From a virus: a stretch of 29,648 nt of DNA. The stretch covers positions 1-29,648 of the IMG/VR virus record IMGVR_UViG_3300011430_000033; one strand, written 5' to 3'. The translations under genes were made by a program, and so were the position numbers. Below the pieces are notes generated by a model, which was given only the letters and a program-made list of their open reading frames with translations, searched no databases and had not been told where the DNA came from. Below, one piece after another: positions 114-29,648 of this stretch; within the stretch, counting starts at the first letter, position 1, and each line of letters starts with the position of its first letter.

Positions 114-142
114 AAAGTGCCTAGTTTTGACTACTCTGTCAA
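114..142 (-). promoter_or_regulatory. Sigma70-type promoter for the partial gene at 107
   Basis: Reading the minus strand, a perfect -35 TTGACA (142-137), a 17-nt spacer ending AGG, and -10 CACTTT (119-114) are seen. The stop codon TGA of the preceding gene (141-139) sits inside the -35 hexamer. It matches the architecture of the promoters at 5020, 11354, 15591, 22285 and 23631. Confidence 0.75.
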
Positions 143-5019: not shown

Positions 5020-5048
5020 GATATGCCGACTTTTGACCCTCTTGTCAA
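5020..5048 (-). promoter_or_regulatory. Sigma70-type promoter of the tail subcluster
   Basis: Minus strand: TTGACA (5048-5043), 17-nt spacer ending AGTCGG, CATATC (5025-5020). The AGTCGG-CAT core is shared with the promoters at 11354 and 23631. Transcription should begin near 5013, giving a leader of about 15 nt before the ATG at 4998. Confidence 0.8.
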
Positions 5049-11183: not shown

Positions 11184-11353
11184 AAAATTATCTCCGATAC
11201 TGTCCCGGAAGTTTGTTGGTCCGGGTGGTTGTTTACCGCGTGCAATCCCCAACATGAGGACCGCTTACTTACTCAACCCCCTCCCGGCCAATCGGAGAAG
11301 CGCTATCAGGCCCGTTCTGACCGAGCCACGTCAGAGAGTTAGGCTCTACACTT
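11184..11353 (-). other. Long 5' leader of the capsid candidate gene
   Basis: About 160 nt lie between the expected transcription start (near 11347) and the ATG at 11183. There is no convincing upstream ORF besides an in-frame extension lacking a ribosome binding site. It may stabilise the capsid mRNA. Together with the promoter (11354-11382) and terminator (11440-11472) it fills the gap between capsid and scaffold genes. Confidence 0.45.
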
Positions 11354-11382
11354 AATATGCCGACTTGGAGGTCACTTGTCAA
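11354..11382 (-). promoter_or_regulatory. Strong promoter of the capsid gene
   Basis: Minus strand: TTGACA (11382-11377), 17-nt spacer ending AGTCGG, CATATT (11359-11354). It is the best match to the shared minus-strand promoter pattern. Unlike the portal promoter it is followed by a long leader and a Shine-Dalgarno. Confidence 0.85.
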
Positions 11383-12979: not shown

Positions 12980-13288
12980 TTAGCTAGGGGTTGTCCGTTC
13001 ACCGTCTGACCATAACGCGTCCTGTTCAATCGGCGGATACATTTCCGCCGCTTGTTCATTTTCAACCTCAACAGGAGGTTCAGTCAACGCGAGAATTTGT
13101 GCGAGGGCGGATTCGTAGCCGCCGACGGCTTTGGCTTGGAGCGCAACCGTGTTCAAATCGGAGCCAGTCGCGAGGGACGGGCGCGCATGAGCGAGGTTGT
13201 CGAGAAAAAGTTGGCCGGTTGCGGACTCAAGGAACTGCTTTAGTATTCCGGCAGAACCCTTGGACCATCCGGGGGAGGATGATTTCAT
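12980..13288 (-). CDS. Small protein between portal and scaffold, unknown
   Basis: 102 aa. Its ATG overlaps the portal stop (ATGA), so translation is probably coupled. The centre (about residues 12-70, 'GILKQFLESATGQLFLDNLAHARPSL...ALQAKAVGGYESALAQILALTEPP') is helical, and the C-terminus is acidic with several prolines (PPVEVENEQAAEMYPPIEQ). Small helical proteins here in podoviruses are often of unknown function or assist in head assembly. I do not recognise it. Confidence 0.65.
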   Translation of the reverse strand: MKSSSPGWSKGSAGILKQFLESATGQLFLDNLAHARPSLATGSDLNTVALQAKAVGGYESALAQILALTEPPVEVENEQAAEMYPPIEQDALWSDGERTTPS

Positions 13289-15590: not shown

Positions 15591-15619
15591 TAAATGCCTG
15601 TTTTTGAGTGCCGTGTCAA
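15591..15619 (-). promoter_or_regulatory. Leaderless promoter of the portal gene
   Basis: Minus strand: TTGACA (15619-15614), 17-nt spacer ending AGG, CATTTA (15596-15591), then 5 nt and the GTG start of portal. The expected +1 coincides with the start codon. Confidence 0.8.
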
Positions 15620-15628
15620 GAAGAATCG

Positions 15629-16366
15629 TCACAGACCCCGGGGCGTATATTCCTCCGAGTGAGTGATGTGGTGCAGAAATTTGACCATCTTGCCCCCGGA
15701 GGTAAGGGAACCGTCCCCGATGCTGAAAACTGCCCGGTTGCCGATGCGGCGTCGGATTTCCTTCTCGTCCACCGGTTCAGAGATTTTCAGGTCTGACAAC
15801 CGCCCCGCCTCGACGTCGAACGTGTTGCCGTAGAGCGACCTGAACAGGGGCGAGGGGCTCAAATCCCACTTAACTCGACCGACTAAGTCGAGAAAGCGGT
15901 CCCGTTGCATTAGCATGGGGACGTGAGTCTCGAAGCTGCGGGTCGTAAGCTTCATGGCCTTCAGGGTCCGAGCGGTGTTCACGAGCGCCATGTGGTAGCG
16001 GGAACTCTTGTCCGCGCGCGAGGCAATATGTTCTTCAAGCGTCCCGCTCGCCGTCGGGGTGATGGCGTCGGCGTCCACTTCCCGGCAGAAGAAAAAGTCG
16101 TCGTTCATCAAGATGAAGTCGTTGAGCGCCGTCTCGTGCTTGGCGAACTGGACGAGCTTCGCCCGGACGCAGGTTGACTTGTCCTTGCCGACGTCCTTCG
16201 CCCCGATGTATTGGAAGTCCACGTCCACCGGTCGCCGCGGGAGGTCGCCGATAACGTAGATGCGGCGCACGTTCTTAACGAACCGTTGGACGGTCATCAG
16301 TGAATACTTGATTTCGAGGTCGTTGTATTTCGACCCCGAGCCAAGGACGTAGAGGATGTCTTTCAT
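15629..16366 (-). CDS. Stealth-like sugar-phosphate transferase
   Basis: 245 aa. Residues 14-42 'YNDLEIKYSLMTVQRFVKNVRRIYVIGD' match the conserved region 2 opening of Stealth proteins (N.ELkYSLRs......I.ivtD), and 84-93 'FILMNDDFFF' matches its hallmark 'FIYfNDDvFf'. 'THVPML..RDRF' at 147-157 resembles conserved region 3 (H.P). Stealth enzymes transfer hexose-1-phosphate from nucleotide sugars when building capsule or wall polymers. I do not see conserved region 1, so this is a short form. The ATG at 16366 overlaps the upstream stop (ATGA) with GGAG/AGAG upstream. It is the last gene of the operon holding the terminase and other sugar enzymes. Substrate is unknown; it may modify host surface glycans or virion proteins. 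Confidence 0.75.
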   Translation of the reverse strand: MKDILYVLGSGSKYNDLEIKYSLMTVQRFVKNVRRIYVIGDLPRRPVDVDFQYIGAKDVGKDKSTCVRAKLVQFAKHETALNDFILMNDDFFFCREVDADAITPTASGTLEEHIASRADKSSRYHMALVNTARTLKAMKLTTRSFETHVPMLMQRDRFLDLVGRVKWDLSPSPLFRSLYGNTFDVEAGRLSDLKISEPVDEKEIRRRIGNRAVFSIGDGSLTSGGKMVKFLHHITHSEEYTPRGL

Positions 16367-16950
16367 GTCTCTTTTCTCCAACAGTTCGCCGGGGCCTCCG
16401 CGACCGGGCGGGGGTTCAACCGGGCGGCGGCGATGGCCAACTCATCCCGGCCTTGGACGCAACACTTGCCAGCGATGGTCGCGTTCGGTTTGTCCGGCGC
16501 CAGAATCTTGTTGACGGACTCCGTGCTGACGGTCTGACACACGCGGCAGATGTCGGCCCAGTTAATCGCGTAGGGGCACGTCGCGCAGATGTCCGCACGG
16601 CGTTGGATTTCCTCGGGCGTGGCCTTCTCCATCGGGCCGGCCTTCAGCGTCCGCTTGATGTCGTGGACCACATGCGACACGAGGGCCTTGGCAATTAGCG
16701 TCGGCTTCTGGCTCGTGTTCTTCGAGCAAAGCTCCGGCTGCGCCTTGCAAATCTGTTCGGTGATTTCCTGCATCGGCTCGCCGGGCGGCTTCTTCAACCG
16801 CTTCCGGTAGAGGCGCACGGACTCGGCCAGCTTCGTGAGGTTGGAGGCGACGTGCGTCACGCCCAGTTCATCCTTGAAGCGATAGCCGGCGCGCGGGTGC
16901 AACGATGGTTTGAGCCGCAATCGTGTCGGCGGGTAAAAAACGGGTGTCAT
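16363..16950 (-). CDS. Cysteine-rich, probable zinc-binding protein
   Basis: 195 aa. The C-terminal half has C122-x2-C125, C135-x2-C138, C163-C164 and C190-W, the type of ICxxCP...C..C...C...W arrangement found in small phage proteins of unknown role that probably bind zinc. The N-terminus (FKDELGVTHVASNLTKLAESVRLYRKRL) is basic and helical. It overlaps the terminase stop and the next gene's start by ATGA at each end, so it is translated as part of the packaging/sugar operon. I do not recognise a named family; nucleic-acid or metal binding is a guess from the cysteines. Confidence 0.65.
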   Translation of the reverse strand: MTPVFYPPTRLRLKPSLHPRAGYRFKDELGVTHVASNLTKLAESVRLYRKRLKKPPGEPMQEITEQICKAQPELCSKNTSQKPTLIAKALVSHVVHDIKRTLKAGPMEKATPEEIQRRADICATCPYAINWADICRVCQTVSTESVNKILAPDKPNATIAGKCCVQGRDELAIAAARLNPRPVAEAPANCWRKET

Positions 16951-18845
16951 GTCATCCAGTCTCCGGTTGAATTGCCCTCAAGACTGTCCTGAGAGCTTGT
17001 TACGTCTGTGAGCATCGGCACGGGCGCGCGGGGGTCAAGTCCCGAGGACGCGTTCGTGATGCCGGCCATGTCGTCGAGCGAGTTCGGTGCGATGTTGAAG
17101 GCGACCCGCACTCCATGAAGAAGCAGGGTAAGTGCATCGGCCTTGTTAGGACTTGAGTTACCGCGGCTTTGGTATTCATCTTTGGTTTCAACCTTCGTGA
17201 GCTTGCCGCTCGCATACCTGCGACCTTCAAGCTCCTTCGCCAGTTCGTCCGTGAAGGCCGACGGCTTGATGCGGATGAAGTTGAACTCGGCCCACTTCTT
17301 CAATGCGAACCAAAGCTCCGAGACAATGCGCTCGTATTCTTCTTTCGCGGTCTTGGTGTCGTCCTCAAGAATTTTCTTCTCCGTGGCCGACTGCATGTAG
17401 TTCACGCCGCGGACCTCGTCGGACCAAAGTGACTTGAGAAAATCATGGACCCCGGCGCCGTTGCCCGTGCGGTCGAGCATCAGGTGCCCCGGCTTGATTT
17501 TCAACTTCTGGCAAGCGCTCTTGATTTCTTCCGCCATCTTGACGGTATCGCCTTTCGGGAGCGGGAAGATTTGGTCAACCTGCAACGCCCAGCGGAACCG
17601 CGTTTGATTGTTGCGGTCTTTGAAGATGACCTCGCGGCCTTTGGGGTGGTCGAATGAAGCAGGATAACGGACGCCAACCGCTCGACCAAATCTACCAACC
17701 GCAAGCTCTGCTGTATCGCCTCCCTCAAGTGCCAAGTCGCCGCCCGCCACGATGTCAGGTTCTTCGGAGAACATGAACTCTCCGCGCGTGCGGGTGAGTA
17801 GAGTGGATGGGAGGACGGAAAAGGTTGCGCCCCCTTTGGGGAAGCAGGCGCGTGCCATTGTCCAATACCCCGGAGTGTCCGTGCCGCCTGAATTGGTGAT
17901 GATTCGTTGGAAGCCTTCATAAGTTTGGAGTCCGGGAAAGATTTCCTTTTTCTCAAGGACGTTCTCCGACTTGGCGGCGTCGAGGCGCACGACATTCCAA
18001 CCGCGTTTGCTCGTCCACTGTTGGTCGGCGTCGGCGTCGAAATGTTCCCAACCCTTCGTCGGCTCGCACCGGAGCGCGACCTGTCCCGTCGGGTCCTCGG
18101 GGTTGAAGGCGCCCATGATTTTGACGGCGTCAATGTCGGTCGTCAGCGTGCCCGCGAGATTGTCCACGTCCTTCCAGACGCCGAGCGGAATCTTTTCCAT
18201 TTCGTCGAGGAAGAACCGGCTCCGGCTCATCAGTCCGAGCGTCGGGTGCGCCACCTTACGGGGGACACGTTTGCGACCCTGTAACCGGCCAGCGGGACGT
18301 TTGCCAAGCGGAATCACAATACCGGTAATGGCTCCTTTGCGGTTCTTGGTGTCGAGGCCGATGAACAAGTCCCCGATGATACCGGGCAATGGAAGGGTAG
18401 AAGCGTTGTGCAGGCTTACCAGATGCGTGAAAAGATTGTCCTTGAGATGGTTCTCGCTCGGGCCCACAAGTGCGACGTTCGTGAACTCCGGGTCGCGAAT
18501 CCAGTCGAGCAACAACCAGACGCCACCGGAGTAGCTTTTCGATTGACTCGCGGCGCCCATGAACATGCTCAAGCTCGTCGTGCGAAGGGCCTCCCAAACC
18601 ATTTTCGTCGCGCGCGGACGCGGGTCGAATAAATTTTTCCCCCATAGTAATCCTGCGGCGTCCTCGTAGCGGTTGTTGTTGAGGCAGTAAAAAAGCAGGG
18701 AGTTGTTCCACTCAAGCGCGACCTCCTGCTTGTCCACGGCGCGCGGGTTGGCGCCGGAGAAGGACGCGATGAGGCGCCCGGCGTCAATGTGCTGGTCGGC
18801 GTGCAAGTGGCCCCCCACCTGAATGATTAACTCGTCCCGGTTCAA
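16947..18845 (-). CDS. Terminase large subunit (TerL)
   Basis: 632 aa from a TTG start. The ATPase part shows a Walker-A-like GAASQSKS (97-104) and Walker B plus catalytic Glu in FFLDEME (211-217). The nuclease part shows D370 (AGGDLALEGGD), D458 (LMLDRTGNGAG) and SPNKADA with D570, which fit the RNase-H-like metal site. It cuts and pumps DNA into the procapsid through the portal. The TTG overlaps the stop of the 77-aa gene (TTGA), in the same way as the ATGA junctions around it; a GTG ten codons on is the alternative. An open extension to 18941 would overlap that gene in another frame and is less likely. The flanking sugar enzymes are unusual neighbours. Confidence 0.9.
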   Translation of the reverse strand: MNRDELIIQVGGHLHADQHIDAGRLIASFSGANPRAVDKQEVALEWNNSLLFYCLNNNRYEDAAGLLWGKNLFDPRPRATKMVWEALRTTSLSMFMGAASQSKSYSGGVWLLLDWIRDPEFTNVALVGPSENHLKDNLFTHLVSLHNASTLPLPGIIGDLFIGLDTKNRKGAITGIVIPLGKRPAGRLQGRKRVPRKVAHPTLGLMSRSRFFLDEMEKIPLGVWKDVDNLAGTLTTDIDAVKIMGAFNPEDPTGQVALRCEPTKGWEHFDADADQQWTSKRGWNVVRLDAAKSENVLEKKEIFPGLQTYEGFQRIITNSGGTDTPGYWTMARACFPKGGATFSVLPSTLLTRTRGEFMFSEEPDIVAGGDLALEGGDTAELAVGRFGRAVGVRYPASFDHPKGREVIFKDRNNQTRFRWALQVDQIFPLPKGDTVKMAEEIKSACQKLKIKPGHLMLDRTGNGAGVHDFLKSLWSDEVRGVNYMQSATEKKILEDDTKTAKEEYERIVSELWFALKKWAEFNFIRIKPSAFTDELAKELEGRRYASGKLTKVETKDEYQSRGNSSPNKADALTLLLHGVRVAFNIAPNSLDDMAGITNASSGLDPRAPVPMLTDVTSSQDSLEGNSTGDWMT

Positions 18846-19075
18846 AGCTTGTTGGTCCGTCGTTTCTCCGGCACCGTGTTCAAGTGGACATAGAGCCCGA
18901 GCGTTTCGTCGGTCGGCTTCTGTGCCGGGCAGTCGGCCCACTGACTCGCGACCGCACGAGCGTTCTTATCTGCGTTCTTGGTGAAGTAAAGCAGGTCGTT
19001 CGCTTCCTTCAAGTTGTCCGGAAACATTTGCAGGCAGATATTGCCGCACGGGCTCAGATGGTATTTGATTCTCAT
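18842..19075 (-). CDS. Small Cys-containing protein of unknown function
   Basis: 77 aa, MRIKYHLSPCGNICLQMFPDNLKEANDLL-type start, soluble and charged, with cysteines at 10, 14 and 49. Its ATG overlaps the stop of the GT25-like gene (ATGA), and its stop overlaps the TTG start of TerL. The frame is open upstream to 19219 but that part duplicates the coding region of the GT25 gene in another frame. I do not recognise it. Its place directly before TerL could suggest a packaging accessory role, but the sequence gives no proof. Confidence 0.6.
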   Translation of the reverse strand: MRIKYHLSPCGNICLQMFPDNLKEANDLLYFTKNADKNARAVASQWADCPAQKPTDETLGLYVHLNTVPEKRRTNKL

Positions 19076-19827
19076 TTCAAGCGGGTTGGATTGCCGTAAA
19101 GTCGCCGACCGCCACCGATGGTGAGGAACCGTTTCTTCCGAATCCGGACGGCGGCGCGGTCCTTGGGTGTCGCGGGCTTTTCCTCGACGAGCGAACCTTG
19201 GCTGCGGTCGTGGTCCCAAGGCGAAGGCTCAATGAACCCGAAGCAACCTTTGAAGGTGTCCGGAATTTCTTGGTCAATCGGCCAGCCGGACCAAGGTAGG
19301 TTCGAGAAGTGGTCCGCGGCCTCGCGCGTCATCAGATACGCCAGCGAGCCGAGAACGCAATGCCAGCCACCTTCCTCGGTTTGCTTGGCGTCGTCCTTCA
19401 GAACGTAGAGCGGTCGGTTCGCCACCGTGCGAAGAACGCGAAAGCGCTTCAGGTCAAAGAGCCGCCCGTAGGTGTTGAAAACGTGGAGGTCCTGATGCTG
19501 GTGCATGTCCGCGACGCAGGCGTTCACGATGTCCTTGTATCGCCCGGTGTTCGGCACCGCGTCGTCCTCGAAGAACAGACCAATCGGTTTGCCGGTCGCG
19601 ACAAAGAGCTTCATCATTTCCTGATGCCCGCGCCAGACCCGATAGTGCGTCTGGATTTTGCAGTGGCCTTCAAACGCCGGCACGAACTTCGCATCCGCCG
19701 GAACCTCCCAGTCGGGGTTGATGTAAAACGTCGCGTCATCGTCCTTGAGCCAAGGCTTCACGAGCGGCGTGCGCTTGGGCGACGTCAGGACGTAACTAGG
19801 AACGGTGAGTTGACCGTATTTGCTCAT
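19072..19827 (-). CDS. GT25-like glycosyltransferase
   Basis: 251 aa. The protein has GLFFEDDAVP (83-92), the donor-site DD motif of glycosyltransferase family 25 (LPS beta-galactosyltransferase type: 'flEDDa'), then GSLAYLMTREAADHF (160-174), which corresponds to 'a.aYlisr.gA..l', and PIDQEIP (183-189), matching the 'piD..l' motif. A C-terminal 'SPWDHDRSQGSLV' matches the usual 'P.l..q....S' end. Such enzymes add galactose or glucose to lipooligosaccharide. No signal or membrane segment is seen, so it acts in the cytoplasm. ATGA overlaps join it to the pyruvyltransferase-like gene before it and the 77-aa gene after it. Confidence 0.75.
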   Translation of the reverse strand: MSKYGQLTVPSYVLTSPKRTPLVKPWLKDDDATFYINPDWEVPADAKFVPAFEGHCKIQTHYRVWRGHQEMMKLFVATGKPIGLFFEDDAVPNTGRYKDIVNACVADMHQHQDLHVFNTYGRLFDLKRFRVLRTVANRPLYVLKDDAKQTEEGGWHCVLGSLAYLMTREAADHFSNLPWSGWPIDQEIPDTFKGCFGFIEPSPWDHDRSQGSLVEEKPATPKDRAAVRIRKKRFLTIGGGRRLYGNPTRLK

Positions 19828-20525
19828 AGATTTTGGAACACGTTCAGGAGCGGCTTCAGGTTCAGTTTCCCCGGCAGAACTGGCTTCGCATCCGCGACCC
19901 GCTTCCAGTGCGGCAGCTTGATGCCGACGCTCGCGGCGTAATCACGGAACTTGGTGCCATCACCGAAAAGGTTGTTCGTGAGTTCAACCCAACACGCCGG
20001 GATGCCGTAGGCGTGCGCGAGAATGATGCCGTGCAGGCTGCTCGAATAAATCGTGTCGAACATCCGCATGTTGTCAATCACGCCGAGCGGGTCGCCAAGC
20101 GGGTTGATGACTGGCAGGCCCGTGGCTTTCGCTTCTTCCAAATCGCAGTAGTGCGCGAAGAACGCCGGGCCCCCGAGCTTGATGACCTTCTGGTCGTAAA
20201 CGTGCGGCATCAAGAGGGCCGGGTCCCCGAACACTTTCGGACACTCGCCGCCCGACCGAAGAACCGCGTGCCGGGTCATTGGTCCACGCACCGCCAGATA
20301 TTTCGCATCCGGGTTTACACTGTCGAGCCGGTTGCCGATGCCAGAGCCGAGGACGGTGACACCGGGCCGCGCCCATGTGGCAATCGTCCCGATGCAAATG
20401 TAATCAGCTTCGTCCTTGGAAGCCCACTCGACCTCGTAGCCGAAGCCCTTCAGGAGTTCAGGCGTCAGGACGTCCCCGCAGTTGCCGGGTTCCTTCATCC
20501 AGAATACTCGAAGGGTCTTGCTCAT
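19824..20525 (-). CDS. Polysaccharide pyruvyltransferase-like protein
   Basis: 233 aa. Features of the polysaccharide pyruvyl transferase family are GNCGD (14-18, family 'N.GD'), VRGPMTR (79-85, 'vRgp.s...l'), GDPALL (100-105) and SSSLHGIILAHAYGIP (161-176, 'sSRLHg.i.A...giP'). These enzymes put pyruvate ketals on sugars of exopolysaccharide, cell-wall polymer or lipid-linked glycan. The protein is shorter than many family members (usually 300 aa or more), so it may be a compact version. It is soluble with no membrane helix. ATGA overlaps connect it to glycosyltransferase genes on both sides, which supports a shared pathway. Substrate is unknown. Confidence 0.75.
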   Translation of the reverse strand: MSKTLRVFWMKEPGNCGDVLTPELLKGFGYEVEWASKDEADYICIGTIATWARPGVTVLGSGIGNRLDSVNPDAKYLAVRGPMTRHAVLRSGGECPKVFGDPALLMPHVYDQKVIKLGGPAFFAHYCDLEEAKATGLPVINPLGDPLGVIDNMRMFDTIYSSSLHGIILAHAYGIPACWVELTNNLFGDGTKFRDYAASVGIKLPHWKRVADAKPVLPGKLNLKPLLNVFQNL

Positions 20526-21331
20526 CGCGTCGCCGCAAAGATGGACGGCGGCATCGCTTCTTTTTCACCGGGCTTCCAGTCGCGAAGCTCAGGCCAGATT
20601 TGATACGGCTTGTAAAAATGGATGTTCTTCTGGCCGGGCGCCAGATTCGGCAGCTTGTCGTTGAGCCAGCCTTCGTAATCGTATTTCGGGTCATCGTAGT
20701 GACCGCTCCGCTTGTGCTTGAGAATGTTCTCAGCCATCGTCGGACGAACGCCCGTGAAGTGATAGATGAGCCGGGCCGGGATGGTCGCCAGCTTGCAGTT
20801 CACCCCGCGGCAGTTGACAAACTTCACCCCGGGCCCAACGTAAGCGGTCGCCGTGTCCTTGGCTCCCTCGACCGGGTAGGGAGGAATCCCCACAACGGGT
20901 ATCATGCCGACGGCTACTGCTTTCGTGCCACGGCGCGCAAGGTTCCAAATCCGATGGAACGTGCCACCAGTCCAAAGCTCATCGCCATCAACGACGAGGA
21001 TATGATTGAAGCCGAATCCGCGAACGTCGTTGAGACAGGTGTTGCGGAAGTTCGTCTCAGTGTCAATCCGCGTCTCACCGTCGAGGAACGTGACGTCCCT
21101 TCGGATGAGCGCGGTCGTGGCGCCGGCCCTTTGCAACTTGACCTGAACCCGGTGAAGCTCGTCGGTGTAATCGTCGGGGACCACTTCTCCGGACCAGTAG
21201 TGTGACGGCTGGAAAAAGAAAAACGTCTTGATGCCCTGCTTGAGGAGCGACTCGCAGACCTCGAACAAGCAGATGTCGTCCCGCACCACTTGCAGGTAAG
21301 CGCAGAAATCTTTCTTCAGCACGGGGCGCAT
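20522..21331 (-). CDS. Glycosyltransferase with DGDE motif (GT-A fold candidate)
   Basis: 269 aa. VVDGDELW at 113-120 is a DXD-type nucleotide-sugar/metal site after a hydrophobic strand ('GFNHILVVDGDE'), as in GT-A enzymes of the 'family 2-like' class. Upstream 'CLFEVCESLLKQGIKTFFFFQPS' resembles the first strand/helix unit, and 'LIYHFTGVRP..AENILKHKRSGHYDD' resembles the acceptor-side His region of enzymes annotated as glycosyltransferase family 2/92-like. No transmembrane segment is seen. It starts 1 nt after the stop of the 285-aa gene and overlaps the pyruvyltransferase-like gene by ATGA. Family is reasonably supported; the sugar is unknown. Confidence 0.65.
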   Translation of the reverse strand: MRPVLKKDFCAYLQVVRDDICLFEVCESLLKQGIKTFFFFQPSHYWSGEVVPDDYTDELHRVQVKLQRAGATTALIRRDVTFLDGETRIDTETNFRNTCLNDVRGFGFNHILVVDGDELWTGGTFHRIWNLARRGTKAVAVGMIPVVGIPPYPVEGAKDTATAYVGPGVKFVNCRGVNCKLATIPARLIYHFTGVRPTMAENILKHKRSGHYDDPKYDYEGWLNDKLPNLAPGQKNIHFYKPYQIWPELRDWKPGEKEAMPPSIFAATR

Positions 21332-21332
21332 G

Positions 21333-22190
21333 TTACTTCGCGGCCTTTCGTTTGCCGGCCCCTCGGCCCGAGGTCTGGTTGCGTGGCGTTGACTTTTTCC
21401 GCTTGACAGATTTCTTGGTGTTGACGACCGCGGGGGCGCTGATGATTTCCATTAGCTCGGCCAGAGACTTGCCGCGAGATTTTGCCGCACACTCGGCTTT
21501 GACCTTGTCAGTCCACTCACGGAACTCAGTGGCATCCATCCGTTGCGGGGTGTCCATGCGCTCGAAGTCCCAAACCATGATGTCGAACTCCGCGTTCTTC
21601 CATTCAGGATTGCGGACCCAAGTGCGTGTAAACGTCCCCTCGGTTTCCGGCAAGGCGTGTTCAATAGACACGATGCGTTTAGTCTCACCGAGGCGTTGAG
21701 GAAAAGGACCCCCGGGAAGGAACCGATACCAAGGCGTATCGTAAACGTAAGGGCACTCGAAACTTTGGTCCGAGGCGAGGAGCCACGCCTTTACCCGGCG
21801 ACAAGCGGCCCGGAACTTGATGATTTGGTGTGTGAACCAAGCGTCAAATTCCCCATAATGGCGACGAAGCTCCGAGCGAATGGTCGTAGGTGACTGGTCG
21901 CCGTGGAACAAGTTGCCGAATCCGCGGAGCGGGAGACAGGGCCAAAGGCACTTCTCGAAGGTCGAAAGGAACAGGTCATCAGTCGCCGGTTGAGCAAGTG
22001 CCCGGAACTGGTCCCAAGTTCCCTGCAACTTGATACGCCTCCCGGCGACCACGATGGGGACCTTCAGCATGACTTCCTCCTTGGGACCGCCGTAGCCTTT
22101 TGGCATGGCGCGAAGGTGGCCGAGGACTTGGTGGTAATTACCCCCGCATTTCGAGCGGAGCCAGTCTTTTACAATCTCAGTGATTTTCAT
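21333..22190 (-). CDS. Unknown protein with basic C-terminal tail
   Basis: 285 aa, first gene of the terminase/sugar operon. It has many Trp and Arg residues, a central region 'LRRHYGEFDAWFTHQIIKFRAACRRVKAWLL' and a strongly basic, probably disordered tail (last about 35 residues, KRKKSTPRNQTSGRGAGKRK). The tail suggests nucleic-acid or anionic polymer binding. I see no catalytic motif and do not recognise a family. The ATG at 22190 lacks a Shine-Dalgarno; it overlaps (ATGA) the stop of a possible 31-aa ORF, which could supply coupled translation. It is separated from the next gene by 1 nt. Confidence 0.6.
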   Translation of the reverse strand: MKITEIVKDWLRSKCGGNYHQVLGHLRAMPKGYGGPKEEVMLKVPIVVAGRRIKLQGTWDQFRALAQPATDDLFLSTFEKCLWPCLPLRGFGNLFHGDQSPTTIRSELRRHYGEFDAWFTHQIIKFRAACRRVKAWLLASDQSFECPYVYDTPWYRFLPGGPFPQRLGETKRIVSIEHALPETEGTFTRTWVRNPEWKNAEFDIMVWDFERMDTPQRMDATEFREWTDKVKAECAAKSRGKSLAELMEIISAPAVVNTKKSVKRKKSTPRNQTSGRGAGKRKAAK

Positions 22191-22284: not shown

Positions 22285-22313
22285 AAAGTGCCGAGTAGCT
22301 CAGAGTTTGTCAA
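22285..22313 (-). promoter_or_regulatory. Promoter of the terminase/sugar operon
   Basis: Minus strand: TTGACA (22313-22308), 17-nt spacer ending CTCGG, CACTTT (22290-22285). The stop of the preceding ORF falls inside the spacer. Leader to the ATG at 22190 is about 90 nt. Confidence 0.75.
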
Positions 22314-23630: not shown

Positions 23631-23659
23631 GAAATGCCGACTTTCGCACCATCTGTCAA
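23631..23659 (-). promoter_or_regulatory. Leftward promoter of the late block
   Basis: Minus strand: TTGACAGAT at the -35 side (TTGACA 23659-23654), 17-nt spacer ending AGTCGG, CATTTC (23636-23631). It nearly duplicates the rightward promoter at 23953 (shared CTCTTGACAGAT and TCGGCATTTCA parts). Confidence 0.85.
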
Positions 23660-23699: not shown

Positions 23700-23867
23700 A
23701 CCATACACCTTTCACCGGACGGGCGGGCCTATTGACTCTGATTCTGTTGTTTTTCTTATGGCCCCTTTTGAGTATATGTAATATAAAATTATTTACGCGG
23801 AATAGACATAACAAAAACAACAGAATTGAAGCTATTAGGCCCGCCCGTCCGGTGAAAGGTGTATGGT
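23700..23867. repeat. 168-bp near-palindrome between divergent promoters
   Basis: Outer arms 23700-23731 and 23836-23867 are perfect 32-bp inverted repeats, GC-rich. Inner arms (23732-23760 / 23807-23835) pair over ATTCTGTTGTTTTT and TTATG with one mismatch, after a 9-nt mostly mismatched bulge. The 46-nt centre is AT-rich (TATATGTAATATAAAATTAT). No target-site duplication is visible at its edges. It carries no gene. Candidates are a replication origin, a regulator site, a bidirectional termination/insulator structure, or a MITE-like element. Confidence 0.9.
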
Positions 23868-23887: not shown

Positions 23888-23928
23888 GGCGACCTGTGAC
23901 CGGTTCCCGGCGACCTGTGACCTGTGAC
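23888..23928. repeat. Short CTGTGACC direct repeats
   Basis: GGCGACCTGTGACC occurs at 23888-23901 and 23909-23922, followed at once by TGTGAC (23923-23928). They lie between the palindrome and the AP2 gene promoter and could be regulator-binding or iteron-like sites. Confidence 0.7.
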
Positions 23929-23952
23929 TGTTTACACGCGACCGATTCCTCT

Positions 23953-23980
23953 TGACAGATTGCTTGCAACTCGGCATTTC
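23953..23980 (+). promoter_or_regulatory. Rightward leaderless promoter of the AP2 gene
   Basis: TTGACA (23953-23958), 16-17-nt spacer ending CTCGG, CATTTC (23975-23980), then AATTAC and GTG. GTTTACACGCG (23930-23940), 12 nt upstream of the -35, also occurs at 27251-27261. Confidence 0.8.
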
Positions 23981-23986
23981 AATTAC

Positions 23987-24751
23987 GTGGACAATACATC
24001 TGACATCAAACATCGAACACAGACGCCGCTGATTCCCTGCGAAGGGTTCATCGGGGTTTACTCACGCGCGGGCGCCGGCAACGGTGCGACGCGATTCCAT
24101 GCCCGAGTATCCTTGCCCGGCGGTGCGGGGATTTACGTCGGCTCATTCCCTGACACGGGCCAAGCTGCGCTTGCTTATGACAACGTCGTGCGCTGCTTTG
24201 TTGCGAACAAGCCCGAGGGATTCAAATACACTCCGGGCATGAATTATCCGGGCATCAGTGACCCGCCGCCGGCCAGTGAGCGCGCCAATGAACTGTTGCC
24301 CAAGTTCCTCGCCGCGGTGAACAAGCGACTCGCCACCATCAAGCCGAAGGAAGTTCGCTCGCGCAATCTCAACCTGAAGCTTGGCCGACCGAATACGCGC
24401 CCGATGGTCGAGTTCAATCTTCTCACGCTGCGTGACTGCCTGCTGCGGCTTTCGCAATTCCAGTTCACTCCACCCATCACCGAAACTCTGCACAGTTTTT
24501 CCGCTGCGCTACAAGGGCTGCTCACATATCACAAGGTTGACGTCGCCAAATGCACGCCACAAAATCCCGACGCCGCCGCGTTTCAAAAACGGATTGACGC
24601 GTTGGTTCACGAGGCCAACGTGCAACGCGGGCTCGCTGAACTGCAAGGGGGCTGTCCTAAAACCGGGCGATACATTCCCGCGGACGCTGGCGGCTCCGTT
24701 CCCGCGGTGCCGACGTTCTCCGACATCAAATGCCCGGGAGACTTGACCTGA
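23987..24751 (+). CDS. AP2-domain DNA-binding protein
   Basis: 254 aa from a GTG that lies 6 nt after a -10 box, so translation is probably leaderless. The open frame continues upstream to 23924, but that would place the promoter inside the gene. Residues about 20-84 form an AP2/ERF-like domain: GFIGVYSRAG..., RFHARVSLPGGAGIYVGSFPDTGQAALAYD. This matches 'GV......W.a.i...gk.iylG.F.t.eeAA.AYD'. In phages AP2 domains usually occur in HNH homing endonucleases; here no HNH is fused, and a separate HNH gene lies three genes on. The C-terminal 150 aa are mixed helical with no clear motif. It may be a transcription regulator or DNA-site recogniser. Its own promoter region carries repeats it could bind. 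Confidence 0.75.
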   Translation: MDNTSDIKHRTQTPLIPCEGFIGVYSRAGAGNGATRFHARVSLPGGAGIYVGSFPDTGQAALAYDNVVRCFVANKPEGFKYTPGMNYPGISDPPPASERANELLPKFLAAVNKRLATIKPKEVRSRNLNLKLGRPNTRPMVEFNLLTLRDCLLRLSQFQFTPPITETLHSFSAALQGLLTYHKVDVAKCTPQNPDAAAFQKRIDALVHEANVQRGLAELQGGCPKTGRYIPADAGGSVPAVPTFSDIKCPGDLT

Positions 24752-24984: not shown

Positions 24985-25406
24985 TTGGCGGCGCTCCTCC
25001 CGACCAATGGACGGACACCGCGCCCAAGGAGTCCGCGGTTGACGTATTCCTGAAAAGCTCCGGGCTTCTTCGTCACCGACTCAAGCCCGAGACGACGTTA
25101 CAACGTCTGAGGCGTGAACGCCCCGAGCTTTTTTTGAGCAAGCAAGAACGGGACGACCTGAAGTATCAATGGGGCGACACCATCATCCGGCAGGACATGG
25201 AAAAGAACTGGCGGAACCGCAACCTGTGTGCCGGCGCTCCGGCTCCGCTGCTGACGGAGGCAGGCCGGGCCATCCGCCAACGGGAAACCAACACGGAGAA
25301 ATGCCGGCGATACCGCCAGCGTCAGGCCATCGCCCGCGCCAAGAAAAAGAGACTTGACGCCGAGGCCGCACCCGTCCAACCTCCGGCGGATGGGCAAGTA
25401 TCATAG
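24981..25406 (+). CDS. Hypothetical basic helical protein
   Basis: 141 aa. The ATG overlaps the preceding stop (ATGA). The sequence is helical and charged, with 'TTLQRLRRERPELFLSKQERDDLKYQWGDTIIRQDMEKNWRNRN' and a Lys/Arg-rich end (RRYRQRQAIARAKKKRLDAEA). This may contact DNA or RNA. It overlaps the HNH gene start by 17 nt in another frame. I do not recognise the family. Confidence 0.6.
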   Translation: MIGGAPPDQWTDTAPKESAVDVFLKSSGLLRHRLKPETTLQRLRRERPELFLSKQERDDLKYQWGDTIIRQDMEKNWRNRNLCAGAPAPLLTEAGRAIRQRETNTEKCRRYRQRQAIARAKKKRLDAEAAPVQPPADGQVS

Positions 25407-25738: not shown

Positions 25739-25767
25739 TTGACCCGGGGCCGGCGCCCGTGTAGGTT
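25739..25767 (+). promoter_or_regulatory. Leaderless promoter cassette
   Basis: TTGACC (25739-25744), 17-nt spacer, TAGGTT (25762-25767), then 7 nt and ATG at 25775. This is the most divergent member of the plus-strand cassette family. Confidence 0.6.
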
Positions 25768-25774
25768 CAGGGCC

Positions 25775-26266
25775 ATGAGTTCAACCATTTCTGAATCGAA
25801 GCCGGTCGCCCTCACCTTCACCGCCGACGGTCGCGTCGCCTCGGGCATCCCTGAGACGGGCCGCAAGGTTCGCCGCATTGCCGAGCAACTCCGCGCCGCC
25901 GGCACCCCGTTCACGCTGACCGTGTCGGAAACCGAATACTCCGACTCCACCCGCCTTTTTTACTGGTTCACGGTCAAAGAGTCCGCCGTGCGCCGCCCGC
26001 ACTCCTACGGCTCGCTCTACGCGTCCTACCTCTGCGCGGGTGTCCGCTTGTCCGTCGCTCACGCCGGCTCCGGTGGCCGCACCTGTGAAGCGTTCGCGGG
26101 CGGCACCAAGCAGGACTTTGGCAAGGGCTCCAAGAAGCTCAAGACCGCGCGCGACTTCGTGCAATGGGCGAATATCACCTGTGCGCACCCCTACAAGCCG
26201 ACGCCCGAACAGGCCGCGGAGGACGCCGTCACCGAAGCCAAGTATCAGGCCGCAATCATCGCTTGA
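25775..26266 (+). CDS. Unknown protein of the leaderless series
   Basis: 163 aa, starting MSSTISESKPVALTFTADGR. The open frame reaches upstream to 25676, but those codons overlap the HNH gene and the promoter, so I start at 25775. The fold looks alpha/beta ('GIPETGRKVRRIAEQLRAAGTPFTLTVSETEYSDS'), with 'YASYLCAGVRLSVAHAGSGGRTCEAFAGG' in the middle. No known motif is recognised. Its TGA lies inside the -35 hexamer of the next promoter. It is probably an early accessory gene. Confidence 0.65.
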   Translation: MSSTISESKPVALTFTADGRVASGIPETGRKVRRIAEQLRAAGTPFTLTVSETEYSDSTRLFYWFTVKESAVRRPHSYGSLYASYLCAGVRLSVAHAGSGGRTCEAFAGGTKQDFGKGSKKLKTARDFVQWANITCAHPYKPTPEQAAEDAVTEAKYQAAIIA

Positions 26267-26290
26267 CACTGGGCCCGACCCGTATATCTT
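26263..26290 (+). promoter_or_regulatory. Leaderless promoter cassette
   Basis: TTGACA (26263-26268) with the upstream gene's TGA inside it, 16-nt spacer ending GACCCGTA, TATCTT (26285-26290), then GACCAC and ATG at 26297. Close to the cassettes at 28382, 29038 and 29411. Confidence 0.8.
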
Positions 26291-26296
26291 GACCAC

Positions 26297-27004
26297 ATGA
26301 ACGACACCACGACACCCGCGCCGACCGCTACGCCCAAGGCGCATCCGTTTGAACTCGCCGGCATGGGCCGTGGCCCTTACCGCTTCGCCGGCTTCGCGCA
26401 GATTCCGTCCGCGCACCTTGCCGAGAATAATCCGTCGGCCTACAACGCCGCGCTTGCCATGCTCCCGAAGGACCTCCGCGGTGGCTGCGGCACCTGCCAG
26501 AACTGCGGCATGGCTATCTCGAATATCTATATCGTGGCCGATGCCGACGGCGCCCGCTACGGCGTGGGCTGCGACTGCGTTGAGAAAACCGGGGACGTGT
26601 GCCTGTCCAAGCCGGTCCTGATTGCCAAGAACAAGATGGAGCGTGAGGCCCGCCGGCAGAAGGCCGACGCCAAGCGCCGCGAGAAGCACGCCAAGTGGAT
26701 GCTCGCCATCTGCCCGACGGGCGAGACGAACGCCGAGCGCATCATCCGCGAGAACCGCCAGCGTGAGGACGGGCTCGCCACCTTCCACGCCGCTTGTGAC
26801 GCGCGGATGGAAAGCTTCGCTGACGTGGTCGCTGCGCTGCCCGAGGGCAACGACTTTTTCGCCAGCCTGATTTTCCAACTCTCTCACCGCTCGCTCACCG
26901 ACCGGCAGGCGTGGTGCATCGCCGAGCAAATCCTTGGACGCCGGGGCGCTGCCTCGACTGAAGGTGAAACCCTCGTCGCGCGGCTGACCGCGCCCGTCGC
27001 ATGA
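26297..27004 (+). CDS. Cys-cluster protein, unknown
   Basis: 235 aa. A cysteine cluster C64-x2-C67-x2-C70 and C92-x-C94 lies around 'CGTCQNCGMAISNIYIVADADGARYGVGCDC', which looks like a metal-binding ribbon. It is followed by a basic helical stretch (KNKMEREARRQKADAKRREKHAKW) and a C-terminal helical region. This suggests zinc and nucleic-acid binding, but I do not recognise a named family. The start coincides with the expected +1. The stop overlaps the ATG of the 66-aa gene (ATGA). Confidence 0.65.
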   Translation: MNDTTTPAPTATPKAHPFELAGMGRGPYRFAGFAQIPSAHLAENNPSAYNAALAMLPKDLRGGCGTCQNCGMAISNIYIVADADGARYGVGCDCVEKTGDVCLSKPVLIAKNKMEREARRQKADAKRREKHAKWMLAICPTGETNAERIIRENRQREDGLATFHAACDARMESFADVVAALPEGNDFFASLIFQLSHRSLTDRQAWCIAEQILGRRGAASTEGETLVARLTAPVA

Positions 27005-27201
27005 GCGCCACCGCTTCAGACCATGCGACGTTCGATTGCGTCTATCGGGGCCAGTGGTTCACGCTCGCCTCGGGCGCGCGGCACCGCAGGGATAACGTCG
27101 GCGTCCCGGGTAGCAAGCTGCCGGACCATTACCTGATTTATGACAGGATGCACCGGGTCCAAACGGTGCCCAAGGCCGAGGTTCACATTCGTTGGTCATA
27201 A
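27001..27201 (+). CDS. Small protein, unknown
   Basis: 66 aa, MSATASDHATFDCVYRGQWF..., beta-rich (FTLASGARHRRDNVGVPG, YLIYDRMHRVQTV). Its ATG overlaps the preceding stop, so it is translationally coupled. Nothing recognised. It is followed by about 200 nt without a gene. Confidence 0.6.
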   Translation: MSATASDHATFDCVYRGQWFTLASGARHRRDNVGVPGSKLPDHYLIYDRMHRVQTVPKAEVHIRWS

Positions 27202-27404
27202 ACGCTCATCATGGTCAATTCTCGTCATAGTCGCAATCGCTCTAGGATGCGTTTACACGCGTCGAGTCCCTCGGATGGGACGACCATAGCGCCCATTTCT
27301 TACAACTTGTTCCAAGTGACTGATTCCCTGTTACTTGTGACCATTTGCCTTGTGTTGTATTACATACATCAAAACGCCCTATAACTCAACCACGGAGGCC
27401 AGAA
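27202..27404 (+). other. Intergenic control region
   Basis: About 200 nt without a gene. It holds GTTTACACGCG (27251-27261), identical to the site upstream of the AP2 gene, a dyad ACTTG-TTC-CAAGT (27305-27317), the promoter at 27335-27363 and the Shine-Dalgarno of the next gene. It is the longest gap of the rightward block. Confidence 0.6.
27335..27363 (+). promoter_or_regulatory. Promoter with leader, dyad upstream
   Basis: TTGTGA (27335-27340), 17-nt spacer, TATTAC (27358-27363). Expected leader is about 35 nt and ends with GGAGG (27394-27398), 6 nt before the ATG at 27405. This is the one plus-strand gene with a strong Shine-Dalgarno. A dyad 18 bp upstream could be an operator. Confidence 0.5.
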
Positions 27405-27806
27405 ATGAGCGTTAACGATAACGGGATTGTGACTAAGTCCAATAACTATTTGAGCCAGTTGGCACAGAAGGTGCATCAGGCCGAGAACTACCAGTCCGAG
27501 GTTGTCCGCGTCGTCGCCGAACGCATCGCCCTTTGCCCGAGGCAATACATCGGGGACCAGATGCCTGACGGTCGCATCGTCAACCTCCGGCCCGTGAAGG
27601 GCGAGCGTGACGCCCTGACGCCTGCCGAGGAGATGGTCCTAGCCTACTCCCGGCGCCGGCTGGGCCTCGCGATGATGGAGCTTCACCGGGCCCGTCGAAA
27701 AATATACCTTGACGAACAGGCCCGAGCCGTCCATATTCACGACCATGAAAGACGGACTCTACAACGCGGCGGTTTGGATGCCGGCGGAACTGACGGTTCC
27801 ATTTGA
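27405..27806 (+). CDS. Unknown protein with Shine-Dalgarno start
   Basis: 133 aa, MSVNDNGIVTKSNNYLSQLA..., helical N-terminal half (AQKVHQAENYQSEVVRVVAERIAL), then 'PRQYIGDQMPDGRIVNLRPVKGERDALTPAEEMVLAYSRRRLGLAMMELHRAR'. A start at 27345 is possible in frame, but GGAGG fixes 27405. The last 62 nt overlap the next gene and its promoter, so its C-terminus is read in another frame across a regulatory region. No family recognised. Being SD-led among leaderless genes suggests different expression control. Confidence 0.65.
   Translation: MSVNDNGIVTKSNNYLSQLAQKVHQAENYQSEVVRVVAERIALCPRQYIGDQMPDGRIVNLRPVKGERDALTPAEEMVLAYSRRRLGLAMMELHRARRKIYLDEQARAVHIHDHERRTLQRGGLDAGGTDGSI
27709..27737 (+). promoter_or_regulatory. 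Leaderless promoter inside the preceding gene
   Basis: TTGACG (27709-27714), 17-nt spacer, CATATT (27732-27737), then CACGACC and ATG at 27745. The CATATT box resembles the minus-strand promoters more than the TAGATT cassettes. Confidence 0.7.
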
Positions 27807-28116
27807 AGGCGCCATCGTCCCCACCTACTCGGCTCACGCGCTTGAGGAGTCACGCAACGACCGCTACGGTCGCGTTGCGCTTCCCTGCACGCTGGACGTT
27901 TACACCGACGACGTTGTCGAAGTGGAAGTCCGCGACGGCAAGCCGGTGAAGGCCGTCATCCGCCAGCCGCTCGACGACCGCCGGGACGTTGTCTGCGTCG
28001 TCAATTTTCCTGAAGTCACCAAGACGAGCCGCGTCAGCTTCGTCCGCACCGTCTGGATTAACAAGGCGAACGACGCGCACAAGACTCTCAAACGCAACCT
28101 CTACATTCAATCCTAA
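27745..28116 (+). CDS. Unknown protein, leaderless
   Basis: 123 aa, MKDGLYNAAVWMPAELTVPF..., beta-rich with an acidic middle ('LDVYTDDVVEVEVRDGKPVKAVIRQPLDDRRDVVCVV') and a basic end. I start at 27745, at the expected transcription start; the in-frame start at 27709 lies on the -35 box. No known motif. It shares 62 nt with the end of the previous gene. Confidence 0.65.
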   Translation: MKDGLYNAAVWMPAELTVPFEGAIVPTYSAHALEESRNDRYGRVALPCTLDVYTDDVVEVEVRDGKPVKAVIRQPLDDRRDVVCVVNFPEVTKTSRVSFVRTVWINKANDAHKTLKRNLYIQS

Positions 28117-28128
28117 CACCAAAAAATT

Positions 28129-28377
28129 ATGCCATCCGCACAAGTCACCGCCCTCAAAAACATCGCGTCCATCCTGCATCACGCCAAGTCCGCGCTCGAC
28201 CAGATTGATTGGACCGACGCCCAAGTCCGGGACGCCGCCATCGGCGCCGACCTGACCGCCCTTGAGACGCACCTTGACAACACCCGGGGCCGTCTCTCGA
28301 CGCTCATTGGCCGCGTTCACCTGAAGGACGCGCAGTTCGCGGACTTCTGCCGCGTTGTAGCCTCCTCCGCGAAATAA
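28129..28377 (+). CDS. Small helical protein, unknown
   Basis: 82 aa, MPSAQVTALKNIASILHHAK..., nearly all helical (ALDQIDWTDAQVRDAAIGADLTALETHLDNTRGRLSTLIGRVH). It begins 12 nt after the preceding stop with an A-rich upstream stretch and no Shine-Dalgarno or private promoter, so it is likely cotranscribed with the gene at 27745. Nothing recognised. Confidence 0.6.
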   Translation: MPSAQVTALKNIASILHHAKSALDQIDWTDAQVRDAAIGADLTALETHLDNTRGRLSTLIGRVHLKDAQFADFCRVVASSAK

Positions 28378-28381
28378 TCGT

Positions 28382-28409
28382 TTGACACCGACCACAACCC
28401 GTATAGATT
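28382..28409 (+). promoter_or_regulatory. Leaderless promoter cassette
   Basis: TTGACA (28382-28387), 16-nt spacer ending CAACCCGTA, TAGATT (28404-28409), then GACACC and ATG at 28416. Confidence 0.85.
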
Positions 28410-28415
28410 GACACC

Positions 28416-29027
28416 ATGAAAACGATTCTCTCCGGTCACACGAGCCCCGAAACTGCTTACGTCGTCAACGATTACCCGTATGGCTTTCGCCTCCGCTGCC
28501 AGATTCGCTACTGGGTCGAGTTCAAGAAGAACAAGGGGTGCCGCGTCGTCAGCCAGACCTCGAACCCGAAACGCCCGGGGCTCGTCTGGAACAAGCCGAA
28601 GGCCGGCACCTATTCCGACTTTGGCGCCGTCCTTTTCCTCGACTCCGCGACCGGGCACGTTGACTGGGCCGTCGTGACTTCTTACTCGGACCTGACGACC
28701 ATTCGCGAGTTCGCATCAACCTACGCCCCGGGACTGTCACCTGACGCCCTTGTCGCCTTCAACCATTGGCACAAGCTCAAGGAGGTTTACGAGGCCAACC
28801 GTCAGACTGACGCTAACCCTGCCGGGTTCCCCTACCAGTATGCCAGCATCTTCGCGACGCTCGTCGTGACCGGTGGCAAGACCGAGGAGAACGCCCGCGC
28901 CATCGTCACCGGGATGATTGAGAAGTCCAAGGCCGCGGCGGCAGGCATCATCAACCCCGAGCCCGTGCGGGTCCTCGTGTGTGACGCCGCCGGGGTGCGT
29001 GACGAAACCGCTGCCGGCGTCCTCTGA
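28416..29027 (+). CDS. Unknown protein, leaderless
   Basis: 203 aa, MKTILSGHTSPETAYVVNDY.... The first half is beta-rich ('GFRLRCQIRYWVEFKKNKGCRVVSQTSNPKRPGLVWNKPKAGTYSDFGAVLFLDSATGHVDW'), the second half helical. This type of protein occurs in phages and plasmids without a known role; I recognise no catalytic motif. The start lies exactly at the expected +1 of the cassette. Confidence 0.7.
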   Translation: MKTILSGHTSPETAYVVNDYPYGFRLRCQIRYWVEFKKNKGCRVVSQTSNPKRPGLVWNKPKAGTYSDFGAVLFLDSATGHVDWAVVTSYSDLTTIREFASTYAPGLSPDALVAFNHWHKLKEVYEANRQTDANPAGFPYQYASIFATLVVTGGKTEENARAIVTGMIEKSKAAAAGIINPEPVRVLVCDAAGVRDETAAGVL

Positions 29028-29037
29028 AAATAAATTG

Positions 29038-29065
29038 TTGACACCGCGCGCAACCCGTATAGATT
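29038..29065 (+). promoter_or_regulatory. Leaderless promoter cassette
   Basis: TTGACA (29038-29043), 16-nt spacer ending CAACCCGTA, TAGATT (29060-29065), then CACCGAC and ATG at 29073. Confidence 0.85.
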
Positions 29066-29072
29066 CACCGAC

Positions 29073-29414
29073 ATGAAATTAACTCAAGCCGAAGTCCGCG
29101 CCAAGCTCAAGTCCCTCGGTATCGCCTTCAAGTCGCTCCCGCAGACGCGCGAGTTCAAGGTGGCCGGGTTCTACTTCACCGACGATTTGCAGGACGCGCT
29201 CCTGACGGGCCGGGTCCTTGGCACCGTCAAGGTCCTGAACAACAAGGCCGACGTTTACACCAAGCGCGGACGCATCTACGCGACGAGCGGCACATGGACC
29301 CACTCCGCAACCAAGGGCTGCGTCCAGTTCGCGCAACACGGGCCCGACGGCCAGAAGTTCACCATCCCCGTTGCTGAGATTCACGACGGCCACGGCCAGC
29401 CGATTTTCGCCTGA
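29073..29414 (+). CDS. Unknown protein, leaderless
   Basis: 113 aa, MKLTQAEVRAKLKSLGIAFK..., with 'EFKVAGFYFTDDLQDALLTGRVL' near the start, a helix then two strands and helix, followed by a beta-rich end. No known function. Its TGA lies inside the -35 of the next cassette (CTGACA). It starts at the expected +1. Confidence 0.7.
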   Translation: MKLTQAEVRAKLKSLGIAFKSLPQTREFKVAGFYFTDDLQDALLTGRVLGTVKVLNNKADVYTKRGRIYATSGTWTHSATKGCVQFAQHGPDGQKFTIPVAEIHDGHGQPIFA

Positions 29415-29438
29415 CACCAGCCGCAACCCGTATAGATT
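29411..29438 (+). promoter_or_regulatory. Leaderless promoter cassette
   Basis: CTGACA (29411-29416) with the preceding stop codon inside, 16-nt spacer ending CAACCCGTA, TAGATT (29433-29438), then GACCAC and ATG at 29445. Confidence 0.8.
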
Positions 29439-29444
29439 GACCAC

Positions 29445-29648
29445 ATGAGCAAATCATCCATCAGCAACGAACCGCCGGCCCTGCCCGTCATCTGCCGCAC
29501 GACCGCTGGGCAATTCTGGATTCAGGAACAGGCACCCGCCGGCAATTTCTTCGACTCCATCGGGTTCCCCGTCGGCATGACGAAAGCCGAGGCAACCGAA
29601 AAACTCCGCTCGTGGCAGAAGTCTTTTCCCTCGCGCGTGTGCAGGCTC
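29445..29648 (+). CDS. Partial gene, unknown, leaderless
   Basis: 68 codons, open to the right edge, MSKSSISNEPPALPVICRTT.... It has an IWIQEQ-like strand, then 'GMTKAEATEKLRSWQKSF', a helix often seen in small phage proteins where an enzyme partner is not known. Start fixed by the cassette. No family recognised. Confidence 0.6.
   Translation, partial: MSKSSISNEPPALPVICRTTAGQFWIQEQAPAGNFFDSIGFPVGMTKAEATEKLRSWQKSFPSRVCRL

Follow-up and report, generated by a model that had tools for sequence, protein, structure and literature searches.

Which signals drive the expression of genes whose start codons have no Shine-Dalgarno (SD) sequence and lie only a few nucleotides behind promoter-like elements? 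This question is raised by the right arm of the DNA analysed here, the whole linear virus record of 29.6 kb (29,648 nucleotides; hereafter the window), which is probably a phage fragment. It consists of a long leftward structural block, as judged from tail-fibre and weak terminase matches plus a terminase alignment, and a rightward arm that carries a series of promoter-ATG cassettes, termed class A. Based on the sequence, we consider it likely that the class A genes are expressed as leaderless mRNAs from serial single-gene promoters.

Six class A cassettes are found on the plus strand, at the coordinates given in a preliminary description of this DNA. Written as -35 hexamer, spacer length, -10 hexamer, gap and predicted leaderless start, they are TTGACC-17-TAGGTT-7-ATG25775 (25739..25767), TTGACA-16-TATCTT-6-ATG26297 (26263..26290), TTGACG-17-CATATT-7-ATG27745 (27709..27737, within the preceding ORF), TTGACA-16-TAGATT-6-ATG28416 (28382..28409), TTGACA-16-TAGATT-7-ATG29073 (29038..29065) and CTGACA-16-TAGATT-6-ATG29445 (29411..29438). 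A TTGAC-type -35 had been described for all of them, which is correct for five but not for the copy at 29411 with its CTGACA; likewise, the described -10 elements TAGATT, TATCTT and CATATT account for all copies except that at 25739, whose TAGGTT was not listed. The identical spacer end of three copies, CAACCCGTATAGATT, was confirmed. All six sites have the hexamer spacing of sigma70-type promoters (16-17 bp), their -10 hexamers agree with TATAAT at three to four of six positions, the gap between -10 and ATG is always 6 or 7 nt and the ATG begins 34-36 nt after the first base of the -35. A weak, probable seventh copy (25354..25382, plus strand; TTGACG-17-CAACCT-7-ATG25390, spacer end ACCCGTC) precedes an HNH gene (ATG 25390, plus strand; PHROG match). 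The -10 elements in front of 25775 and 25390 are weak.

The number of these cassettes by far exceeds expectation. The pattern [TC]TGACN-N16/17-[TC]ANNTT-N6/7-ATG matched six times on the forward strand between 25400 and 29648, compared with a mean of 0.002 in dinucleotide-shuffled sequences (at most one match per shuffle; 1000 shuffles). Over the window as a whole, six forward matches and one reverse match stand against 0.01 expected, and a similar pattern, reversed as a control, gave no match in the window and none in the related genome G400 described below.

The genes behind the cassettes are a mixed collection, all on the plus strand: three genes of unknown function encoding proteins of 163 aa (25775..26266), 235 aa (26297..27004, weak match to PHROG 2319) and 113 aa (29073..29414), a PHROG 24108-family gene of 123 aa (27745..28116), whose start is backed by homologues that align from residue 1, a gene of a conserved phage family (28416..29027; SPETAYVVNDYPYGFRLRC...) and an ORF that runs past the right end of the window (29445..29648). 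It may be mentioned that the TGA stop codons of the genes at 25775 and 29073 lie inside the -35 elements at 26263 and 29411, respectively. The absence of SD sequences noted earlier was substantiated by the calculated duplexes with the anti-SD sequence, which range over the six starts from +1.2 to -3.5 kcal/mol, with +0.4 to +1.2 kcal/mol at five of them and -3.5 kcal/mol at 25775. By contrast, the gene at 27405..27806 (plus strand), which has no cassette, is led by CGGAGG with a duplex of -9.5 kcal/mol. A layout of one promoter per gene, as previously proposed, therefore applies to six, possibly seven, genes; it does not apply to the genes at 27001, 27405 and 28129, which have no cassette. Apparently, the layout is not universal, and some genes of the right arm have an SD or a start-stop overlap, the latter being the case for gene 27001. 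Since gene 28129 lacks a cassette as well as an SD, the absence of an SD alone is no proof of a leaderless start.

According to the mechanism that we propose, the cassettes would be sigma70-type promoters composed of a TTGACA -35, a spacer of 16-17 bp with the conserved end CCGT and a YANNTT -10. The start codon would be placed where RNA polymerase usually starts, 7-8 nt after the -10, and the mRNA of each gene would then be leaderless, its 5' AUG being read directly by the ribosome. Both the transcription start sites and the leaderless translation are inferred from this geometry, and since the polymerase can shift +1 by a few nucleotides, some mRNAs may have leaders of 1-3 nt, in particular at genes with a 7-nt gap. 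An AUG without SD would be poorly used within a longer transcript, and genes that have neither an SD nor start-stop coupling would for this reason keep their own promoter. Promoter and start codon would thus make up a small module that could be placed before unrelated accessory genes and that, in two cases, would even supply the stop codon of the gene upstream. On the structural strand, a second promoter family is predicted to abut the start codon in the same way at part of its genes and to produce leaders at the rest.

The preliminary description had made its reading depend on the recurrence of the motif in related phages. The family of the protein encoded at 28416 comprises 63 viral loci, and one of them (L079) lies on G400, a record of 75 kb that is syntenic with the window; terminase (67% identity), portal-like protein (63%) and capsid-like protein (69%) are found in the same order. 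In G400 the motif does recur, with a gap of 5-7 nt as in the window: there are about eleven class A cassettes, and the promoter-ATG pattern gave 11 matches compared with none in the reversed control. The strongest single result was obtained with class A sites defined without a start codon. With a pattern whose letters were picked after viewing both genomes but which left the distance to the start codon free, 11 of 11 sites, five of which belong to G400 and the others to the window, had an ATG or GTG 6-7 nt downstream. At these 11 sites, as at the six cassettes of the window, the first base of the -10 is 12-13 bp upstream of the start.

The class A strand of G400 also codes for a DNA polymerase A, a helicase-like protein and a sigma70-family protein, and the gene of the latter is itself located behind a class A promoter. 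A location on the strand with these genes agrees with early or middle expression of class A, which is plausible; the layout as such would not be confined to early genes, since leaderless-type starts are also predicted at structural genes. A scan of viral contigs with the exact spacer of the window (TTGACA...CCGTATAGATT...ATG) returned no match beyond the window's own record, so this spacer sequence is private to the window phage. Searches of viral contigs with the terminase and the 27745 protein of the window revealed no relative; in tblastn searches of named phages, these two proteins had no more than distant matches, and the portal-like and capsid-like proteins had none.

The promoters of the second family, class B, have the form TTGACA-N17-CAYNTT or similar with a spacer end of GG or CG, and lie mostly on the structural strand in both the window and G400. 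About half of the sites abut a start codon, often GTG. Four sites in the window are of this kind: 23952..23980 on the plus strand (TTGACA-17-CATTTC-6-GTG; predicted leaderless start GTG 23987 in ORF 23924-24751) and, on the minus strand, 23631..23659 (predicted leaderless start GTG 23625; same layout at the G400 orthologue, ATG 9884), 15591..15619 (TTGACA-17-CATTTA-5-GTG; predicted leaderless start GTG 15585 of the portal-like gene 13285-15585) and 114..142 (TTGACA-17-CACTTT-6-ATG; ATG 107, leaderless or with a leader of 3 nt, in a gene that runs past the left end). The portal-like gene of G400 shares the GTG layout (20239, TTGACA-17-CATTTA-5-GTG). Leaders are predicted for three further minus-strand sites: 11354..11382, with a leader of about 90 nt before the capsid-like gene 9945-11255 and also leadered in G400; 5020..5048, with a short leader before ATG 4998 and again leadered in G400; and 22285..22313, which precedes gene 21333-22190. 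Portal and capsid were assigned by position. In several class B sites the gap is 9, 12, 15 or 21 nt.

Could the arrangement have a simpler explanation? TTGAC is frequent in the window (more than 100 sites on both strands together), and promoter-like hexamers in intergenic gaps would adjoin start codons anyway; the shuffled sequences, the spacer sequence common to the copies, the recurrence in G400 and the empty controls refute chance, to which we assign practically no weight. More serious is the idea that the cassettes are ordinary promoters with very short leaders of 1-5 nt, or with starts slightly within the ORF, and that no special mechanism is involved. It draws on the gap of 5-7 nt seen across all copies and on the longer gaps of several class B sites. 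However, drifting leaders would spread wider than the 6-7 nt found at every one of the start-independent class A sites, and we regard this explanation as unlikely. It is more improbable still that the motif is not a promoter at all but a translational or regulatory signal near start codons. A repeated, conserved element at a fixed distance before the starts of unrelated genes is what such a signal would look like, and the Start-Associated Sequences (SAS) of Cluster K mycobacteriophages (PMC3203893) are a precedent. But the cassettes contain both sigma70 hexamers at 16-17 bp, have almost no complementarity to the 3' end of the 16S rRNA (-3.5 kcal/mol at 25775 and none at the other five sites), and class B copies occur also about 100 nt from the start codon, as promoters do. 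Leaderless transcription from class A promoters thus remains our preferred reading.

Which sigma factor reads the two classes is a separate question. The sigma70-family protein of G400 scores above the TIGR02937 cut-off, and its region 2 is nearest to RpoH. The GGCATNTT of class B resembles the -10 element of RpoH, CCCCATNT, and the phage protein may read the class B promoters. With respect to this question alone, the opposite assumption, that the housekeeping sigma factor of the host reads A and B as mere sequence variants and that the phage sigma has its targets elsewhere, is about equally probable: TTGACA, the spacer of 16-17 bp and a YANNTT-like -10 are common to both classes. Against it stand the RpoH-like features just mentioned and the fact that the classes are largely strand- and region-specific.

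Is the leaderless layout a property of the gene or of the lineage? Among 52 other loci of the 28416 family at which the start could be located, only L079 on G400 has it. Most of the others have purine-rich, SD-like leaders, with 28 loci reaching -6 kcal/mol or lower, which argues that the layout at 28416 is specific to the window lineage and not to the gene. Another locus (L085) lies on G401, a record of 180 kb that is apparently unrelated to the window phage and has 38% GC over the 20 kb examined. G401 has 26 promoter-ATG matches, all forward, whereas the control gave no match; nine of nine start-independent sites within the 20 kb examined had an ATG at 6-7 nt, and six of them open an ORF of at least 35 codons. 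Its cassette consensus, TTGACATCCA...TGATACACT, differs from that of the window. Smaller sets of cassettes (TGTGNGATAAT-like) are present among leadered genes at L005 and L076, and no cassettes were found at L107 and L108 (capsid 40% identical). In a more distant syntenic relative, G408, whose capsid-like protein is 54% identical to that of G400, just one site resembles class A; a different repeated element, CACTGTTTWA, stands a few nucleotides before the start codons of the portal-like gene and four further genes, and the sigma homologue is only 26% identical to that of G400. This is consistent with a sigma factor and a class B promoter that changed in concert, with an unaltered distance to the start codon. 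Going further, one may speculate, with considerable reservation, that several unrelated phage lineages converged on a genome-wide promoter-start cassette, with up to dozens of monocistronic leaderless genes, and that in the window lineage the promoters fall into two temporal classes, of which the second is read by an RpoH-like phage sigma that is itself made from a leaderless transcript of the first class. If so, accessory genes would largely do without polycistronic, SD-led expression.

A host among the Verrucomicrobiota is plausible only. The generic layout TTGACA-N16/17-TANNTT-N6/7-ATG was found 82 times in 39 Verrucomicrobiota genomes compared with 6 times in the reversed control; the corresponding numbers are 18 and 6 in 40 Pseudomonadota and 22 and 19 in 31 Bacteroidota genomes. 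Together with this enrichment, the scarcity of SD sequences in some Verrucomicrobiota (PMC10783764) makes such a host conceivable. A gap of 16-17 nt is also enriched in Verrucomicrobiota (48 compared with 4). Class B was considered as a host marker and rejected, as Verrucomicrobiota (3 matches in 195 genomes) are no richer than Pseudomonadota (4 in 200). The class B scans gave 6 scattered matches in viral contigs and 15 in genome contigs, three of the latter in Verrucomicrobiota, which is estimated to be no more than chance.

If the class A genes are leaderless, they would evade any control that acts on SD recognition, and each gene could be gained or lost together with its full expression signal, which takes up about 37 bp. 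The layout would also allow start codons to be predicted from promoters, and the gene calls of uncultured phages to be corrected accordingly. Natural material on when and why phages prefer leaderless over SD-led translation is offered by G401, with its 26 copies, and by the pair of window and G400, and the co-occurrence of a phage sigma gene with a second promoter class is amenable to direct tests in vitro.

In T4- and SPO1-like phages, temporal control is exerted by a phage sigma factor. The likeness to the present case lies in the sigma70-family protein and in a separate promoter class for the structural strand; the difference is that the sigma gene, a candidate for such a role, is present in G400, with the distant homologue in G408, and not in the window. 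Leaderless transcripts have reportedly been seen in the Thermus phages phiYS40 and P23-45. Bacterial leaderless genes have a TANNNT box, the -10, whose first base lies some 12 bp upstream of the start (Zheng 2011, PMC3160421), and have been described together with their -10 motif in Deinococcus-Thermus (PMC12340547) and in mycobacteria (PMC4633059). They resemble class A in the distance of the -10 (6-7 nt before ATG or GTG) and in the lack of an SD, but class A belongs to a phage, has a strong TTGACA -35 and a CCGT spacer end common to the copies, and occurs at serial neighbours. SAS, known from Cluster K and also from Cluster EF Microbacterium phages (PMC7302621), are like class A short elements repeated at the starts of unrelated genes, but they are located at the ribosome binding site and pair partially with 16S rRNA, whereas class A is a two-hexamer promoter without SD complementarity. 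A further comparison is with the Cluster O mycobacteriophages (Corndog group), in which PL1, PR2 and PL2 are predicted to be leaderless (PMC4351075). A genome of this group has three such promoters, whereas there are six to seven in 4 kb of the window, about eleven (class A) in G400 and 26 in G401, for the most part one to each gene. None of the papers accessible to our literature search describes a phage with many leaderless promoters that each serve a single gene. Leaderless mRNA as such is familiar; serial promoters of this type, each for one gene, look like a new variation at such a density.

Cassettes of the form TTGACATCC...TGNTANNNT-N6/7-ATG occur 26 times across the 180 kb of the phage record that carries L085, all on a single strand, and this phage is apparently unrelated to the window phage. 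On the minus strand of G408, a more distant syntenic relative (loci L110-L112), a CACTGTTTWA element is repeated a few nucleotides upstream of the start codons of five genes; no clear TTGACA -35 was found with the elements at these five genes.

In the second promoter family (class B), about half of the sites abut a start codon, often GTG. At L105 of the 75 kb syntenic relative G400 (G400:63306, minus strand), a class B promoter ends 6 nt ahead of a six-codon mini-ORF that opens with GTG (VNKLPL). The stop codon of this mini-ORF and the ATG that starts a 731-aa gene overlap as ATGA, and the mini-ORF may encode a leaderless leader peptide coupled to this main gene. In the window, a 61-nt inverted repeat (23700-23760 and 23807-23867, 89% complementary) separates a pair of class B promoters, at 23659 and 23952, that point away from each other. 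Two Verrucomicrobiota contigs share TTGACAAAYATATTCGTAAGTCGGCATWT (L014 772-800, minus strand; L022 2654-2682, plus strand), which closely resembles the class B element.

The product of window 28416-29027 belongs to a conserved phage protein family found on >60 viral contigs (L004-L007 and L043-L101 among the members), with the N-terminal motif SPETAYVVNDYPYGFRLRC.IRYW and no Pfam or PHROG match for the window protein. Sugar-modification-like genes are interspersed with structural genes at 15629-21331 (minus strand), where a Stealth CR2-like gene (15629, minus strand) and a polysaccharide pyruvyl transferase gene (19824, minus strand) are located; a tail-fibre-like gene contains collagen-like 9-nt repeats (6664-6814).

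G400 has its own sigma70-family gene, preceded by a sigma70-type (class A) promoter-ATG cassette. It encodes a factor of 232 aa (L105 951-1649 = G400:60351-61049, minus strand; TIGR02937 above cut-off), whose region 2 is nearest to that of RpoH.
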